Positions 8,535 through 43,457 of a DNA stretch of 64,000 bases are shown piece by piece (position 1 is the first letter of the stretch; every line of letters starts with the position of its first letter). A program made the position numbers and the translations under genes. The DNA is from Bacillus sp. ISL-37. Lineage in GTDB: Bacteria > Bacillota > Bacilli > Bacillales > Cytobacillaceae. Location of the stretch: contig NZ_JAGGQL010000005.1 of assembly GCF_018613315.1 (NCBI RefSeq), forward strand, positions 270,245 through 334,244. Direction: 5' to 3'. The notes below the pieces were generated by a model. It did no database searches, was not told the DNA's origin, and saw nothing but the letters and a program-made list of their open reading frames with translations.

Positions 8535-10825
8535 TAACGTTCCACTTCTTCCATGATATATGCTTCAATGACGTCGCCTTCCTTGACGTCTTTGAAGTTT
8601 TTAATGGTAATACCGCATTCATAGCCCTGAGCTACTTCTTTGGCATCATCCTTGAAACGTTTTAATGCATCGACTTCCCCTTCAAAGATGACGACTCCGT
8701 CACGAATCAAACGAACACCGCTGTCACGGGTGATTTTGCCATCAGTAACATATGAGCCGGCAATCGTTCCGATTTTCGATACCTTGAAGGTCTGGCGGAC
8801 TTCAGCCTGGCCGATGACCTTTTCGGCATAAACCGGATCAAGCATACCCTTCATCGCTGATTCGATTTCTTCGATCACTTTATAAATAATGCGGTGAAGT
8901 CGAATATCGACGCTCTCTGACTCTGCAGCGCGCTTCGCATTATTGTCCGGACGGACGTTGAAACCGATGACGATACCGTTAGAAGCTGCTGCAAGTGTGA
9001 TGTCAGACTCATTGATCGCACCAACACCAGTGTGAATGATTCTTACATTTACACCTTCCACATCCAGTTTTTGCAATGCTGCTGCAAGTGCTTCAACTGA
9101 ACCTTGGACGTCGGCTTTAATAATTAGATTTAGGTCTTTCATTTCCCCTTGTTTCATATGTTCAAACAAAGTATCGAGGCTGACGCGCGCTTTTTCGCTT
9201 CTTTGTGCCTGTACAGCCTGCTGTGAACGGATTTCTCCAACCTGGCGGGCAGTCTTTTCATCATCGAATACTACAAAACGATCGCCTGCTTGCGGAACAT
9301 CGTTCAAGCCTGTAATTTCTACAGGGGCTGAAGGGCCTGCTTCTTTAACACGGCGGCCTACATCATTTACCATTGCACGAACACGTCCATAGGTATTGCC
9401 CACTACTATTGGATCGCCAATCTTCAATGTACCGTTTTGGACAAGCAAAGTAGCAACAGATCCGCGGCCTTTATCAAGCTGCGCTTCGATTACAGTACCG
9501 ATGGCATTTCGATTAGGATCTGCTTTATATTCTTCAACTTCACCAACAAGCAAAATCATTTCAAGCAGGTTATCAAGACCTTCTCCTGTTAAGGCAGAAA
9601 TCGGAACAAACACTGTTTCGCCGCCCCATGCCTCTGGAACAAGTCCGTATTCAGTTAGCTCCTGCATAACACGATCCGGATTCGCAGTTGGTTTATCCAT
9701 TTTATTAACTGCTACGATAATAGGTACATTGGCAGCTTTAGCATGGTTCAATGCTTCCACAGTCTGTGGCTTAACACCGTCATCTGCAGCTACAACAAGG
9801 ATTGTGATATCGGTAATCTTTGCACCTCGAGCACGCATTGTTGTGAACGCTGCGTGACCAGGTGTATCAAGGAATGTGATTTTTTTGCCGTTTTCTTCTA
9901 CCTGGTATGCACCGATGTGCTGAGTGATGCCGCCTGCTTCTCCTGCAGTCACTTTCGTGTTGCGGATTGAATCAAGCAAGGTCGTTTTACCATGGTCAAC
10001 GTGACCCATAATCGTTACAACTGACGGTCTTTCAACCATAGATGCTTCATCATCTTCTGTGAAATAAACCTCAAGGTCAGTTGTGTCAATCTTGATTGTT
10101 TCTTCAACTTCTACTCCATAATCAGTTGCAATCAGTTCAATTGCATCCTTATCAAGATCCTGGTTGATCGTAGCCATTACACCAAGCATAAAGAGCTTCT
10201 TGATAATCTCAGACGGCTCACGGTTAAGCTTCTTGGCTAATTCAGCTACTGTCAAAGATTCACTGAAAGTAATCTTTGAAGGAAGCTCTTTAACCTTCTT
10301 AGGCTGTTGTGGAGCCTGCTGCTGATTCTGTCTGCCCTTATTCTGGTTTTGCTGGTTTCTATTCTTATTTTGTTTGTTCTTATTGTTTTTGTTGAAAGGC
10401 TGGGAGTTCCCAGGCTTTTTAGCAACTGCTGAAGTTTTCACTTTCTCAGGAGTTGTTGCACGACGCTCGTCGTCTGAAAAAGCGCTAGCTGTTGTCTTAA
10501 GCTGAGCTTTTGGCTGTGCCTGGTTGCTTTTTTGCTGATTTTGGGATTGATTGCGATTCTGTCCCTGGTTAGGCTTTTGGCCTTGGTTGCGATTCTGGTT
10601 CTGTCCCTGTGAAGCCTTTTGCTGGCTTTGCTGCTGAGAATTTGCCTGTGCTTGCGGCTTATCTTCTTTTTTATTATAGACAGCATCGAGTTTCTTTATG
10701 GTTTCATCTTCCATTGTAGTCATATGGTTAGAAACCTCTATATTCATTTCTTTTAATTTTATAATCACGTCTTTACTCGATAAGTTATGCTTCTTTGCAT
10801 ATTCATAAACGCGTGTTTTACTCAT
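8534..10825 (-). CDS. infB: Translation initiation factor IF-2
   Basis: GTPase that places fMet-tRNA on the 30S P site and promotes subunit joining. 763 residues: an N-terminal IF2_N helix-turn-helix unit (1-50), a Gln/Asn/Lys-rich linker (about 55-178), a second IF2_N unit (about 185-240), then the GTPase core with G1 GHVDHGKTT near residue 272, DTPGHAAF and NKMDKP, and domains II, III and the fMet-tRNA-binding domain IV at the C terminus. The low-complexity linker is longer than in B. subtilis IF2, which largely explains the greater length. Located between ylxQ (19 bp) and ylxP (1-base overlap). Confidence 0.98.
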
Positions 10826-36746: not shown

Positions 36747-37914
36747 AGGTGCTTGCTCCAAGAATAGTATTTGCAATCATTTCAGGATTTGCCTCGATCA
36801 GGTCATCTGGCACATCTTGTCCATTGGTCAGATAGGCGATTCCAGTCGAGAACTTTATTGCCATATTAAGCATCGACCCGTAAACCGCCGTTTCATCCAA
36901 TTTAGTAAAAATGAATTGATCAATATGAATCAGCGAAAATTGCTTGCGTATTTCTTCCATATCTTTTTGTTTCGCCGTCAAAGCGAGGACAAGGTAGGTT
37001 TCCATGTCCTTACCAAAATCAATCACATTTTTCAAATCGTTTACATATTTTTGATTTCTGAAATTCCGTCCAGCTGTATCAATAAAGACAAGGTCATACT
37101 CAGCGAATTTATCTGTTGCAGCCTTGAAATCATCCAGGTTGTAGCAAACTTCGATTGGGACATCGAGGATTTTTGCATATGTTTTCAACTGCTCAATTGC
37201 CGCAATTCGATAGGTGTCTGTCGTAATAAAAGCCACCTTCTTCTGGTGCTTCAATACACATTCAGCAGCAACCTTTGCCAGCGTTGTCGTTTTCCCTACT
37301 CCAGTTGGTCCAATGACATTGACGAACTTCTTTTTAAAAGAAACACCTTCAAATGAAAGTGGAGAAAGCCTGTGTCCAATAGCAGCCGTAATCCATTCGG
37401 TGATTTCCTCATCACTTGCTTTCGCTCCGCCTAGGTACCACTTTTCAAGAAGGACTACAGCCAATTCATCAATGATTTCATGGTCTACTTCCTGATCTCT
37501 CAAGTATTGGATTTGCCTGCTCACTGGTTCTGGCAAAAAGACTCCTTCGGATTTACCCGTTCCCTTTAACATTTCCTTAAGCTGTGAAATTTCTTTTAAA
37601 AGCTCCTTGTCGGCTTTAGGAGGTGTTTCTGTTATAGGATTCACCCTTACAGTTTGTGAGTCCTTTTTAGATTCGTCATCTTTTACGGACGGCTTATATT
37701 TATTTGCTTTATCCATACTGGCAGGCTTTTGACTTACTTCAGTGTCTGGGTCAATGGCGGCAATTACCTCAATGCTATTTTTCTTAAAAAATCCCATGAA
37801 CCCTCCTGTCTGGACGACACGAGAATTCAAGATTACTGCATCACTTCCCAATTCCCCTCTGACTAGTTTCATTGCTTCCGGCATGGATGAAGCTGTATAC
37901 TTTTTCACTTTCAT
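36739..37914 (-). CDS. flhF: Flagellar SRP-type GTPase FlhF
   Basis: 391 residues. N-terminal basic B domain (MKVKKYTASSMPEAMKLVRG), a helical N domain, and an SRP-like G domain from about residue 190 with P-loop [15 protein letters not shown] near 200 and DTAGRNF near 280. FlhF marks the site of new flagellar basal bodies and is regulated by FlhG, the next gene. It overlaps the flhA stop by four bases (ATGA). Confidence 0.95.
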   Translation of the reverse strand: MKVKKYTASSMPEAMKLVRGELGSDAVILNSRVVQTGGFMGFFKKNSIEVIAAIDPDTEVSQKPASMDKANKYKPSVKDDESKKDSQTVRVNPITETPPKADKELLKEISQLKEMLKGTGKSEGVFLPEPVSRQIQYLRDQEVDHEIIDELAVVLLEKWYLGGAKASDEEITEWITAAIGHRLSPLSFEGVSFKKKFVNVIGPTGVGKTTTLAKVAAECVLKHQKKVAFITTDTYRIAAIEQLKTYAKILDVPIEVCYNLDDFKAATDKFAEYDLVFIDTAGRNFRNQKYVNDLKNVIDFGKDMETYLVLALTAKQKDMEEIRKQFSLIHIDQFIFTKLDETAVYGSMLNMAIKFSTGIAYLTNGQDVPDDLIEANPEMIANTILGASTYE

Positions 37915-39947
37915 TCTACATTCACCACTCCGACACTTTGGACTTCAACATTTGCTTCAAGTTCGTTATAAGACAATACAGGAATCTGTGCAAAATACCT
38001 TTCAGTCAACTGGCGCACATACATCCTGACCGCAGGGGAGCATAATATGATTGGTGTTTGTTCCATTATGCTCAATTGCTCCACCTGGTTTGCCACAGAT
38101 TCCAAGATACCTTGAGAAACGGCGGGGTCAAGAGATAAGTAGTTACCGTGCTCTGTTTGCTGAACACCATCTGCAATTACCTTTTCTACTCGTCCTGAGA
38201 GTGTAATCACCTTTAGGGTTTCTCCGTTTCTTGAATACTGGTTCGTGATTTGCCTAGCAAGTGCCTGGCGAACGTATTCAGCAAGGATATCTGTATCTGT
38301 TGTTACTTTTCCGTAATCTGCAAGTGTTTCGAAGATAATTGGCAAATTCCTGATTGATACATTCTCTTTAAGCAGCTTGCCAAGTACTTTTTGAATTTCA
38401 CCAACTGATAATGGATTAGGTGTTGCTTCCTCGACAAGGATTGGATAGCTTTCACGAAGGTGATCGATCAGCTGCTTCGTTTCCTGTCTTCCCAGCAATT
38501 CATGTGCATTAGCCTTGATCACTTCTGTAATATGGGTCGACACCACTGAAGGAGGATCGACAACTGTGTAGCCAAAGATTTCAGCCTGCTCCTTCATTTC
38601 TTCGGTGATCCATTTAGCAGGCAATCCAAAACTTGGTTCGATTGTATCGATCCCTTCAATAGAGTCATCGTCTATTCCAGGACTCATTGCCAGATAATGA
38701 TCGAGAAGCAACTCTCCCCTCGCCATTTCGTTTCCTTTGATTTTCAGTCTGTATTCATTAGGCTGGAGCTGGATATTGTCCCGGATCCTGACCACCGGAA
38801 TGACCAGTCCCAGCTCAATGGCCAGCTGCCTTCTGATCATGACAATCCGGTCGAGCAGGTCTCCTCCCTGGTTAGCGTCTGCAAGGGGGATCAACCCATA
38901 CCCGAATTCAAACTCAATCGGATCAACATTTAATAGATTGACAACACTTTCTGGACTCTTCATCTCGTCCATCTGAATGTCTTCTTCCATTTCCTGCAGC
39001 TGCTGCTTATCAGGCTCTGGAACACGGGAGAAGGAATAGCCGCCAAATGCCATCAGTGCCGCGATTGGAATCGTAAGCATATCGTGGATTGGCGTAAACA
39101 GCCCTAATAGGAAAATCGTTGCTGCTCCGACATACAGCATTTTAGGATAAGCAAGTAACTGTGAGGTAATATCAATTCCAAGATTCCCGTCAGACGCTGC
39201 ACGAGTAACCACTATACCCGTCGCTGTCGAAATCAGCAGTGCCGGAATTTGACTGACAATCCCATCCCCTACGGTCAACAGTGAGAATTTTTCAGCTGAT
39301 TCTCCAATGCTTAACCCTAATTGAGTCATGCCGATGACAATCCCGAAGATCAAGTTGATCAGAACGATGATGATTCCCGCTATCGCATCTCCTTTTACGA
39401 ATTTACTCGCACCGTCCATCGCGCCGTAAAAATCAGCTTCACGGCTTACTTTTTCGCGTCGTTCACGCGCCTGCTGTTCAGAAATCATCCCAGCATTCAA
39501 ATCAGCATCGATACTCATTTGCTTTCCAGGCATCGCATCAAGCGTAAACCTTGCTGCAACCTCTGACACACGCTCTGAACCTTTCGTGATGACGATGAAT
39601 TGGATAATGATCAAGATCAGGAACACAACCATCCCGACAACCACATTCCCTCCGACTACGAAGGTACCGAAGGTCTCAACCACTCCGCCAGCTTCACCTT
39701 TTGACAGAATTGAACGTGTTGTCGATACATTCAGGCCAAGCCTGAATAAAGTTAACAACAGCAGCAGTGAAGGAAAAACAGAAAACTGGAGCGGCTCGGT
39801 CATATTCATTGTGTTCAATAGCACCAGAAGTGCAATCGAGATGTTAACCATGATTAGTACACTTAATAGCCATGGCGGAAAAGGAATGATCAACATGGCT
39901 ACGATTAATATGACACTAAGCAGGACGGACAGATCTCTTGCTGACAT
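37911..39947 (-). CDS. flhA: Flagellar export gate protein FlhA
   Basis: Major export-gate subunit and docking platform for export chaperones. 678 residues: an N-terminal half with about eight membrane segments including the conserved loop GMPGKQMSIDADLNAG-like segment (AMPGKQMSIDADLNAG near residue 140), and a large cytoplasmic C-terminal domain. The length is close to that of B. subtilis FlhA. It follows flhB by 34 bp. Confidence 0.97.
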   Translation of the reverse strand: MSARDLSVLLSVILIVAMLIIPFPPWLLSVLIMVNISIALLVLLNTMNMTEPLQFSVFPSLLLLLTLFRLGLNVSTTRSILSKGEAGGVVETFGTFVVGGNVVVGMVVFLILIIIQFIVITKGSERVSEVAARFTLDAMPGKQMSIDADLNAGMISEQQARERREKVSREADFYGAMDGASKFVKGDAIAGIIIVLINLIFGIVIGMTQLGLSIGESAEKFSLLTVGDGIVSQIPALLISTATGIVVTRAASDGNLGIDITSQLLAYPKMLYVGAATIFLLGLFTPIHDMLTIPIAALMAFGGYSFSRVPEPDKQQLQEMEEDIQMDEMKSPESVVNLLNVDPIEFEFGYGLIPLADANQGGDLLDRIVMIRRQLAIELGLVIPVVRIRDNIQLQPNEYRLKIKGNEMARGELLLDHYLAMSPGIDDDSIEGIDTIEPSFGLPAKWITEEMKEQAEIFGYTVVDPPSVVSTHITEVIKANAHELLGRQETKQLIDHLRESYPILVEEATPNPLSVGEIQKVLGKLLKENVSIRNLPIIFETLADYGKVTTDTDILAEYVRQALARQITNQYSRNGETLKVITLSGRVEKVIADGVQQTEHGNYLSLDPAVSQGILESVANQVEQLSIMEQTPIILCSPAVRMYVRQLTERYFAQIPVLSYNELEANVEVQSVGVVNVE

Positions 39948-39981: not shown

Positions 39982-41067
39982 TTACAGCACTTTATTTTTT
40001 GTTTGATACACATAGGCCAGGATTTCTGCCACCACTTTGAAAAATTCTTCAGGAATGGCATCCCCGATTTCAGCCTGGCTGTATAAAGCCCTTGCCAGAG
40101 GACGGTTCTCGACAGAAATAATATCATTTTCCTTGGCAATCAATTTAATCTTCTGTGCGACAAAATCGACACCTTTTGCTACAACAATCGGGGCATCGGA
40201 CTTCTGTTCGTCATACTTTAACGCAATCGCAAAATGGGTCGGGTTTGTTATGACCACATCCGCTTTTGGCACTTCTTGCATCATCCGCCGCATTGCCATC
40301 TCTCTTTGCTTCTGCTTGATTTTCGACTTGATCAGAGGGTCACCTTCGATATTTTTATACTCATCCTTCAAGTCTTGTTTTGACATACGGATACTTTTCT
40401 CATAATCATATTTTTGGTAAAGATAGTCCAATAATGATAAAAATAGCAATGCTCCGGAAGCAAAAAGGCCCATTTGGAGCGTCAGCCCGGCAATAGTGGC
40501 AATTGCAGCACCTACACTCTTATTAGCGAGCAGCAGGACTTCGTCCAATCTCAGCCATAGAACCGAGAATGCAATCACTCCTACAAAGGTGATTTTGAGG
40601 ATTGATTTTAGCAATTCAACGATAGCCCTCATGGAAAAGATTCTCTTGAAGCCGCTGATCGGATTAATTTTTTCAAGTTTCATTTGTATTGCTTCAGTAG
40701 AAAACATATAGCCGACTTGGATGTAGTTGGCGGCCACCCCTGCAATCAACGCAACGATCATGACCGGGCCAAGGAAAATGACCAGTTCACCCAAAATTTC
40801 AATTACAATGGATTCAATGTTATTTGCTGTCAAATCCATCAACATATAATTCTGCAAGGAGTGGCGAAGAATTCCGATAAGTCTCTCCATCATCACACTG
40901 CCAAAAAACATCAAAAACAAAAACACAGCAAGGAGGACAATAGCTGTATTGACATCCTGGCTTTTGGCAACCTGTCCTTTTTTCCGTGCGTCCTGTCTCT
41001 TTTTAGGAGTCGCTTTTTCTGTCTTCTCGCCCGCAAAGAATTGCAGGTCTAACCTTAAAAATTCCAT
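39982..41067 (-). CDS. flhB: Flagellar export switch protein FlhB
   Basis: Controls the substrate-specificity switch from rod/hook to filament export, triggered by FliK. 361 residues with four membrane segments and a cytoplasmic C-terminal domain that contains the self-cleavage motif NPTH near residue 272 (VVITNPTHFAIALKYD). The N terminus FFAGEKTEKATPKKR is typical. It starts next to the fliR stop, without a gap. Confidence 0.97.
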   Translation of the reverse strand: MEFLRLDLQFFAGEKTEKATPKKRQDARKKGQVAKSQDVNTAIVLLAVFLFLMFFGSVMMERLIGILRHSLQNYMLMDLTANNIESIVIEILGELVIFLGPVMIVALIAGVAANYIQVGYMFSTEAIQMKLEKINPISGFKRIFSMRAIVELLKSILKITFVGVIAFSVLWLRLDEVLLLANKSVGAAIATIAGLTLQMGLFASGALLFLSLLDYLYQKYDYEKSIRMSKQDLKDEYKNIEGDPLIKSKIKQKQREMAMRRMMQEVPKADVVITNPTHFAIALKYDEQKSDAPIVVAKGVDFVAQKIKLIAKENDIISVENRPLARALYSQAEIGDAIPEEFFKVVAEILAYVYQTKNKVL

Positions 41068-41845
41068 TTAAGCTCCTCCGATCAATTCCATCAATCCTCT
41101 CATTGTTGCAAGAGTGGTGGAAAATAGATCCGTTATAACCATGATCAGCACGCCCATTACCGCAATAAGTACGAGAAAGCTGACAGCAATTTTAACCGGC
41201 AATCCGACAACGAATATATTCAATTGCGGGACGGTCCTCGCTACAATCCCGAGCGCAACATCAACCAGGAACAAGCTGCCGACAACCGGCAAGGACATTT
41301 GGAAGGCAATAATGAACATTTTGTTAAAAGCCAGGATGATGAACTCTGCAATATTTTCGTTCCCAAACGGAATCATCACCTGATCAATCGGGATAAAATC
41401 ATAACTGTAAAATATTCCGTCCATCAACAAATGGTGGCCATTGACTGTCAGCAGAAACAAAAGAGCAATCGTATATAAATACTGTCCCATCAGCGGGCTT
41501 TGTGCCCCTGTTTGTGGATCGATGACATTCGCAATCGCAAACCCCATCTGAAAATCAATGAAACCCCCTGCTATCTGGATGGCAGCCATCATTAACGCCG
41601 CAATGAAGCCTATGAATAACCCAACCATTGCTTCCTTGATGACCAGCATGAAATACGTGCTATCTACTGCGATTTCTGGAGCACCTATTGCGGTGAACAT
41701 GATGATAGAAAGCATGAATCCCAGCCCTACTTTATGTGATGCAGGGATCGTCCGATATGAAAAATAAAGGCATCATCAAGAAAAAGGACGTCACCCTTAC
41801 AAAAATCAGCAGGAATGCCGGAAACGATGGAATAAAATCTAGCAT
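41068..41845 (-). pseudogene. fliR: Flagellar export protein FliR, frameshifted near the N terminus
   Basis: FliR forms the export gate core with FliP and FliQ. Translation from ATG 41845 (right after fliQ) gives MLDFIPSFPAFLLIFVRVTS, FFLMMPLF and then leaves frame, stopping at TAA 41732-41734. The rest of FliR, beginning SYRTIPASHKVGLGF, continues in another frame to 41068 without a further stop. Removing one base from the A5 run at 41760-41764 joins the two parts into a 258-residue protein, the usual FliR length, reading MMPLFSYRTIP as homologues do. An internal ATG at 41715 would yield only 215 residues lacking the first membrane segment. It is either a real mutation or a homopolymer error in the sequence. 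Confidence 0.88.
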
Positions 41846-41849
41846 CTCA

Positions 41850-42119
41850 TCAGCCTACAAACCTAGTAAGATTTGAAAATATTTCACTCGCATAGCTCAG
41901 CATATAACTTAACATCCACGGACCAAAGAAAACGACTCCGACCAGGACGGCCACAATCTTTGGGACAAAAGCCAGTGTCTGTTCCTGGATTTGCGTAGTT
42001 GCCTGAAAAATACTGACGATCAAACCAACTACCAGCGCAAGTATCAGCAAAGGCCCTGAAATCATTAAAACTGTATAAATTCCTCGTTCAGCTATCGAAA
42101 TAACCGCTTCTGATGTCAT
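41850..42119 (-). CDS. fliQ: Flagellar export protein FliQ
   Basis: 89-residue export-gate subunit with two membrane segments; LMISGPLLILALVVGLIVSI and FQATTQIQEQTLAFVPK are near-universal in the family. The ATG at 42119 (MTSEAVIS) matches homologues and has AGGTG at 8 bases; an ATG at 42125 adds two residues. It lies between fliP (14 bp) and fliR, whose start is 4 bases downstream. Confidence 0.96.
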   Translation of the reverse strand: MTSEAVISIAERGIYTVLMISGPLLILALVVGLIVSIFQATTQIQEQTLAFVPKIVAVLVGVVFFGPWMLSYMLSYASEIFSNLTRFVG

Positions 42120-42133
42120 TTTCATTCACCTGC

Positions 42134-42799
42134 TTAAAAACTTTGTAATAATGATTTCACGACTAAATACCATCCATCTACCATGACAAAAAGCAAAATT
42201 TTAAATGGAAGGGAAATCATGACTGGCGGCAGCATCATCATACCCATGGACATCAGGACACTAGCCACAACCATATCGATCACCAGAAAAGGGATAAATA
42301 TCATGAACCCGATTTGGAATGCTGTTTTGATTTCACTGATGGCAAATGCCGGGACAAGGGCTGTCAGAGGGATATCCTGAACGGATTCGGGCGTCTCAGC
42401 CTTTGAATATTCAAGGAATAACGCTAAATCCTTCTGCCTCGTATGAGCGCTCATGAATTCCTTAAAAGGGATAGATGCCCTTTCATACGCTTGCTCCAAA
42501 TTGATTTCTTCATTGAATAAAGGCGTCAGAGCTTGTTCATTCACTTCATGGAAAGTAGGGGCCATGATGAAGAATGACAGGAACATCGCAAGTCCGACCA
42601 GCACTTGGTTGGGCGGCATTTGCTGTGTTGCAAGCGCCGTTCTGACAAAGGAAAGAACGATGATGATCCTTGTAAAACTTGTCATTAAAATCAGGATGCC
42701 TGGCGCAATAGAAAGTACAGTCAGCAGGAGCATCAGCTTTACGGATGTCGATACACTCTCAGGAGTACTGCTGTTGAAAAACTCCATAAACTCATTCAT
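42134..42799 (-). CDS. fliP: Flagellar export protein FliP
   Basis: 221-residue pentameric export-gate core subunit. Conserved segments: LTVLSIAPGILILMTSFTRI and VLSFVRTALATQQMPPNQVL near the N terminus, then KTAFQIGFMIFIPFLVIDMV. The length equals that of B. subtilis FliP, and as there no long signal peptide is present. The ATG at 42799 is used; an upstream GTG/ATG at 42862 would lie deep within fliO. It overlaps the fliO 3' end by 8 bases. Confidence 0.96.
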   Translation of the reverse strand: MNEFMEFFNSSTPESVSTSVKLMLLLTVLSIAPGILILMTSFTRIIIVLSFVRTALATQQMPPNQVLVGLAMFLSFFIMAPTFHEVNEQALTPLFNEEINLEQAYERASIPFKEFMSAHTRQKDLALFLEYSKAETPESVQDIPLTALVPAFAISEIKTAFQIGFMIFIPFLVIDMVVASVLMSMGMMMLPPVMISLPFKILLFVMVDGWYLVVKSLLQSF

Positions 42800-43457
42800 C
42801 TTTTTCTGACCCTTTCTTTTGTATCTCCTCAAGCATTTTCTTTCTTCCGCTCGCCATATCACTCAGTTGATTCTTCAGTAACGCGGAAAATTCTGAACGC
42901 TGATTGCCGCCATCTTTCTTCGCTCTTTTAAGCAACTTTGTCACAATATCGCTTGGCTGTACAAGCTGCTCCATTTTATTGTTATATTCCTGAATGACTT
43001 GGCTGTACTCTTCCGGGTCGTCTATTTCTTTTAAAAGCTGTATATTTTCTCCCACACCAACGATGAGCAGCTTATTGCCCGCTTTAACAATCTGGACTGA
43101 CCTGTTAGCGCCAAGGCTTGTGCCTCCGAGATTCTCAACAAGCTGGGAGCTTTTATATGACATGCTCTTCTTATTGATGAATTTGAGGAGAAAGTAAATT
43201 AATGCTGCCACAAAGGCGGTAGCAAGGATCATCCTGAGAAAATCAAGGAAACCGACCCCTACTTGGGATTTCTTATCGTCTGATTGCTTTGTTGTCTTAT
43301 CTGCCTGTCCATCATCACACGACTCAGGGTTTTTCATACAATCCTGCACGCTTTTATTAAGCTGCTCTGCGCTCGCCAAACCAATTGGACCGAACAGAGC
43401 AGCTAATAAGAAAAGAATTGTCGAGGCAGTTCGGATTAATCTTAACAATTGCCGCAC
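42792..43457 (-). CDS. fliO: Flagellar biosynthesis protein FliO (FliZ)
   Basis: Helps assemble the FliP ring. 221 residues: N-terminal signal-like segment (about 10-29) ending in LASAEQ, an acidic/Lys external region containing two Cys (DCMKNPESCDDG) that might form a disulphide, a membrane segment (about 70-90, MILATAFVAALIYFLL) and a cytoplasmic domain with LGANRSVQIVKAGNKLLIVGVG, the FliO core. Called FliZ in B. subtilis. It follows cheY. Confidence 0.9.
   Translation of the reverse strand: MRQLLRLIRTASTILFLLAALFGPIGLASAEQLNKSVQDCMKNPESCDDGQADKTTKQSDDKKSQVGVGFLDFLRMILATAFVAALIYFLLKFINKKSMSYKSSQLVENLGGTSLGANRSVQIVKAGNKLLIVGVGENIQLLKEIDDPEEYSQVIQEYNNKMEQLVQPSDIVTKLLKRAKKDGGNQRSEFSALLKNQLSDMASGRKKMLEEIQKKGSEKDE

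Follow-up and report, generated by a model that had tools for sequence, protein, structure and literature searches.

FliR is reported to be one of the five membrane proteins that the flagellar export apparatus requires (PMC4526659), and a CRISPR knock-down aimed at fliR in B. subtilis, directed at the operon, is described as disrupting or severely repressing swimming (PMC9250202). In C. jejuni 11168mot-, one base is reported lost from an 8-base run in fliR, resulting in a stop after 39 aa of the 255-aa protein and a motility defect; the loss was shown there to be reversible and the cells to be non-motile (PMC7677240). Export genes, including fliR and flhB, have also been reported among those mutated during adaptation of root-evolved B. 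subtilis, likewise one of the Bacillaceae; these were experimental lines, and fliR is described as mutated only in the Bs_root_A lines (PMC10438812). Another gene relevant here is flgN (yvyG), with B. subtilis FlgN reported as essential for filament assembly and motility, and its deletion as leaving cells non-motile and devoid of filaments (PMC4054197).

The fliR locus studied here lies in a stretch of 64,000 nucleotides (the window) from a Mesobacillus strain deposited as Bacillus sp. ISL-37. As in C. jejuni 11168mot-, an A/T run near the start of fliR is altered by one base; the stop here follows 37 aa, vs. a protein of 258 aa in near relatives (a length taken from those relatives). Unlike the C. 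jejuni case, the run here numbers five bases where near relatives have four, and the phenotype is predicted only. In addition, flgN of the same genome is frameshifted on another contig than fliR, a lesion that the first-pass annotation of the window did not include; in contrast to the engineered deletion in B. subtilis, it is a one-base shift with a predicted effect. We put at about 0.72 the probability that fliR has undergone a real and recent loss of function in this strain by a spontaneous one-base slip in its T run.

The split fliR frame

The gene order fliP-fliQ-fliR-flhB-flhA is present, with the four neighbours of fliR named by NCBIfam (Table 1). The first-pass annotation had described a one-base frameshift within fliR; we found the two pieces in different frames as claimed, and the positions that it gave for the start codon, the T run and the stop were right. 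Residues ~1-27 of the N-terminal piece match FliR of relatives while its final ten are out of frame; the ATG of the C-terminal piece lies 16 bases after the stop codon of the first, and its frame is open for 19 codons further upstream.

Table 1. Coordinates of fliR, its neighbours and flgN (window positions unless a contig is given)
Feature	Position	Strand	Description
fliP, open	42134..42862	-	TIGR01103
fliQ, open	41850..42125	-	TIGR01402
fliR N-terminal piece	41732..41845	-	ATG 41845 to TAA 41734-41732; 37 codons
T5 run at frame change	41760..41764	-	A5 on plus strand
fliR C-terminal piece, other frame	41068..41715	-	ATG 41715; 215 aa
flhB, open	39982..41067	-	TIGR00328; start codon directly after fliR stop
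flhA, open	37911..39947	-	TIGR01398
flgN (name presumed), split by one-base shift in A run	C26:187413-187879	-	found by comparison with closed relative

No single open frame covers the FliR N terminus, the 37-aa and 215-aa pieces being in different frames, and the N-terminal piece alone matched no NCBIfam family. The C-terminal piece, on the other hand, passes the NCBIfam FliR profile on its own (TIGR01400, 185.4 bits vs. a cut-off of 168.6, profile positions 38-245 of 245), and it scored 219.6 bits against PF01311 (cut-off 27.8), in a match that sets in as late as profile position 20 of 230. Residue 6 of this piece pairs with residue 49 of the best-matching solved FliR, hence ~43 N-terminal residues are absent from it. 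Since the C-terminal piece alone clears the FliR cut-off, automatic annotation may miss the break, a caution for the prediction of motility from gene content. A second fliR copy was ruled out by a profile search of the whole genome (a draft of 4.74 Mb in 62 contigs, 100% complete), in which the only PF01311 match was fliR itself.

Comparison of the same locus in close relatives, a check proposed in the first-pass annotation, revealed that fliR is one uninterrupted frame, with 258-270 codons between stops, in every one of the 109 related loci read (97 distinct sequences); these comprise 29 among the matches listed in one search, in which 58 of 61 genomes matched, and the best 80 of 574 in another, with some genomes counted in both. 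Within the genus, 20 of 21 genomes searched had a fliR match, the exception being a relative that is 66% complete; the match in the studied genome starts late, and fliR is open in all 19 matches among the 20 relatives. Among the loci read, the disruption is thus private to the studied genome, and these comparisons confirm that the split is a real feature of the sequence rather than a chance arrangement. Among named records, Mesobacillus selenatarsenatis SF-1 comes closest (97.2% over 726 aligned columns). Among 13 loci taken for an alignment of run length, four T occur at the site of the frame change in each of the nine relatives' loci aligned across it, the other four being the window's own locus (L002) and L003, L006 and L008 (other strand). 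Longer T runs occupy the same codons in many relatives without loss of frame, so the site is no evident hot spot.

As to the age of the lesion, comparison of the C-terminal piece with SF-1 gave 21 synonymous changes and 1 non-synonymous change; the corresponding counts were 33 and 0 for the closed relative G018, 26 and 2 for ISL-55, and 58-65 and 5-8 for three further relatives. These data suggested that the encoded protein was constrained until recently, and hence that the lesion is either young or a sequencing error, with the test fitting both equally well. The earlier description of the lesion as recent is consistent with this constraint.

flgN and the remaining flagellar genes

Contig C26 was picked because the flagellin genes sit there, and its comparison with the closed relative uncovered a second split gene, which from its sequence and place we take to be flgN; the gene adjoining it is presumably flgK. 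When 21 genomes were searched with residues 1-40 of the G018 protein, flgN was open (at least 154 codons over the match) in 20 of 20 genus relatives, with a stop inside it in the studied genome alone. Over the first ~90 bases, flgN of the studied genome matches that of G012 except in its A run, which is 7 bases long in the former and 8 in the latter, with one state seen per genome; the pattern used to locate this context matched 4 of 13 loci (the studied genome, G018, G012 and G002).

The other flagellar genes of the window are open, most of them under presumed labels. The one MotA_ExbB protein and the five Flg_bbr_C proteins are open, as are three flagellin-type frames, one of which contains an intron. 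Likewise open are a small gene beside flgN, which looks like flgM, and two genes that we take to be fliW and csrA, both at first masked by an overlapping ORF. As far as it was examined, then, the flagellar system appears to be preserved apart from one-base lesions, private to this genome, in two export genes. Two of the 10 two-frame splits tallied over the compared stretches (see below) are flagellar, a count that does not demonstrate flagellar enrichment among the splits.

Probable recent loss of function and alternative explanations

We propose that slippage by one base within the short T run inactivates the sole fliR, with translation ending after 37 codons. Ribosomes may then restart at ATG 41715; the FliR so made would lack 43 residues at its start and with them the first hydrophobic stretch. 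Pairing of a 16S tail with the region before this ATG came to -10.2 kcal/mol, as compared to -10.7 for flhB and -6.9 for fliR itself; being about as good as that of flhB, it renders such a restart plausible. A restart there would keep flhB translated, but the truncated FliR is expected to be non-working. Given what the FliR family is known to do, a cell without full FliR should fail to assemble the export gate; rod, hook and the anti-sigma factor FlgM would be retained inside, and expression of late flagellar genes would stay low. The strain is accordingly predicted to be bald and non-swimming. We infer from sequence that the living strain carries the lesion, as well as the loss of function and the phenotype; the rise of the lesion may have been by selection or by drift, in culture or in a niche.

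The first-pass annotation had judged both a real indel and a miscalled base plausible; of these, we prefer the former. The latter would have fliR intact in the strain and the longer T run as a consensus error of the draft assembly, which we regard as considerably less probable. It is consistent with a single assembly in 62 contigs with N stretches in the contig carrying the window (C55), with the location of both the fliR and flgN lesions in A/T homopolymers, which are usual sites of sequencing indels, and with the absence of decay downstream of the fliR shift, an observation that an error explains equally well. Also counting against a real loss, the remaining flagellar genes that were inspected have open frames, indicating no broad decay. 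On the other hand, T5 is a short run, and two conserved flagellar export genes are affected, which in our judgement is less expected of random errors.

To weigh this alternative further, we compared 843 kb of the studied genome (C55 1-414000, C26 whole and C33 30001-250000) with the matching stretches of G018, which is closed in one contig; aligned blocks of C55 were 90.7% identical. The claim of intact neighbours held up, since among 58 orthologues in the window with a length of 100 aa or more, 57 were full length vs. G018, all but fliR; this test ignored internal stops, for which the 843-kb comparison looked. In the three stretches combined, 522 orthologues with at least 75% identity had no detected break and were scored as intact; 38, 40 and 44 other rows (<75% identity or partial) were excluded. 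Automated calls of broken genes numbered 43 (25, 6, 12) in the studied genome and 49 (27, 10, 12) in G018, many of them false calls due to upstream start codons or antisense ORFs. One such call in the window, flgE (C55:317105-318349), was rejected because its stop lies only before the likely start. Two-frame splits, defined as rows with two pieces in different frames and tallied by eye, amounted to 10 in each genome; some may be antisense ORFs, fliR and flgN are the two individually checked among those of the studied genome, and rows with an internal stop but no frame change were left out, of which a few mid-gene ones may be real nonsense mutations. The 522 intact orthologues contain 2,463 A/T runs of 5-9 bases (1,806 of 5, 525 of 6, 114 of 7, 17 of 8 and 1 of 9), counts that show only the rarity of breaks at such runs. 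Given this number of intact runs and the equal number of splits in the closed relative, a homopolymer-prone assembly appears unlikely, a verdict on the assembly at large that does not clear any single base. The N runs in C55 are one of 52 N at C55:270193-270244, just before window base 1, and two of 2 bases at C55:220286-220287 and C55:359536-359537.

A reversible switch, with the short A/T tracts of fliR and flgN slipping at useful rates to generate clonal swimmers and non-swimmers in Mesobacillus, seems to us distinctly improbable. Phase-variable homopolymer switches typically have long tracts, of about 7 bases or more. The fliR run is only T4 or T5 among near relatives, and the many relatives with longer runs at the same codons are in frame; the A run of flgN, by which the studied genome and G012 differ, would have the length of a switch tract. 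The 8-base tract of fliR in C. jejuni is a precedent, and other motility-related genes of that species are reported to have mutated in tracts of 3-5 bases (PMC7677240). Nevertheless, both independent lesions would need to revert, and the MutL-type (PF01119) and MutS-type (PF05192) frames of the studied genome are open, which speaks against a switch and also led us to reject mismatch-repair loss as the cause of the lesions. Programmed +1 frameshifting or transcript slippage, yielding full FliR from the split gene, is hardly credible. The downstream frame is indeed conserved as protein; however, recoding in relatives sharing the frame, as entertained in the first-pass annotation, does not agree with the finding that 0 of 109 loci read carry the shift, and the predicted fold of the 80 bases that follow the run is no more stable than that of shuffled sequences (z 0.30). 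Tracts usual for slippage are far longer than the fliR run.

In sum of probabilities, the split most likely reflects an ordinary recent loss of motility, less likely a sequencing error, and no new mechanism is indicated. If the loss is real, the strain should be without flagella despite carrying almost all of its flagellar genes in intact form. It would then be a minor instance, in a member of the Bacillaceae other than the model species, of flagella being lost recently through slips in short tracts.

Introns and other elements at the flagellar loci

A third flagellar lesion was suspected in a flagellin gene on C26, but a group I intron (RF00028) lies at the apparent break. Two such introns lie on the minus strand at C26:182094-182460 and C26:181654-182000 (91.9 and 75.2 bits, respectively). 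Mesobacillus is mesophilic, and the first of the two introns interrupts the flagellin frame of the studied genome; we did not count this gene as broken, since the intron presumably splices. One RF00028 intron each is found at the G005 and G012 loci too. Flagellin introns have been described from thermophilic Bacillus and Geobacillus (PMC3984707).

Near the late flagellar genes of relatives there are c-di-GMP-I riboswitches (RF01051, RF03167) at L216:533-616 in G008 and L176:15874-15961 in G018. The G018 locus L178, where no Rfam family scored up to its cut-off, carries at ~8681-8907 a dispersed repeat of ~200 bases that occurs in many places in the studied genome: 38 of 40 scored matches of that genome to L178:5001-20000 fall on this repeat, across many contigs.
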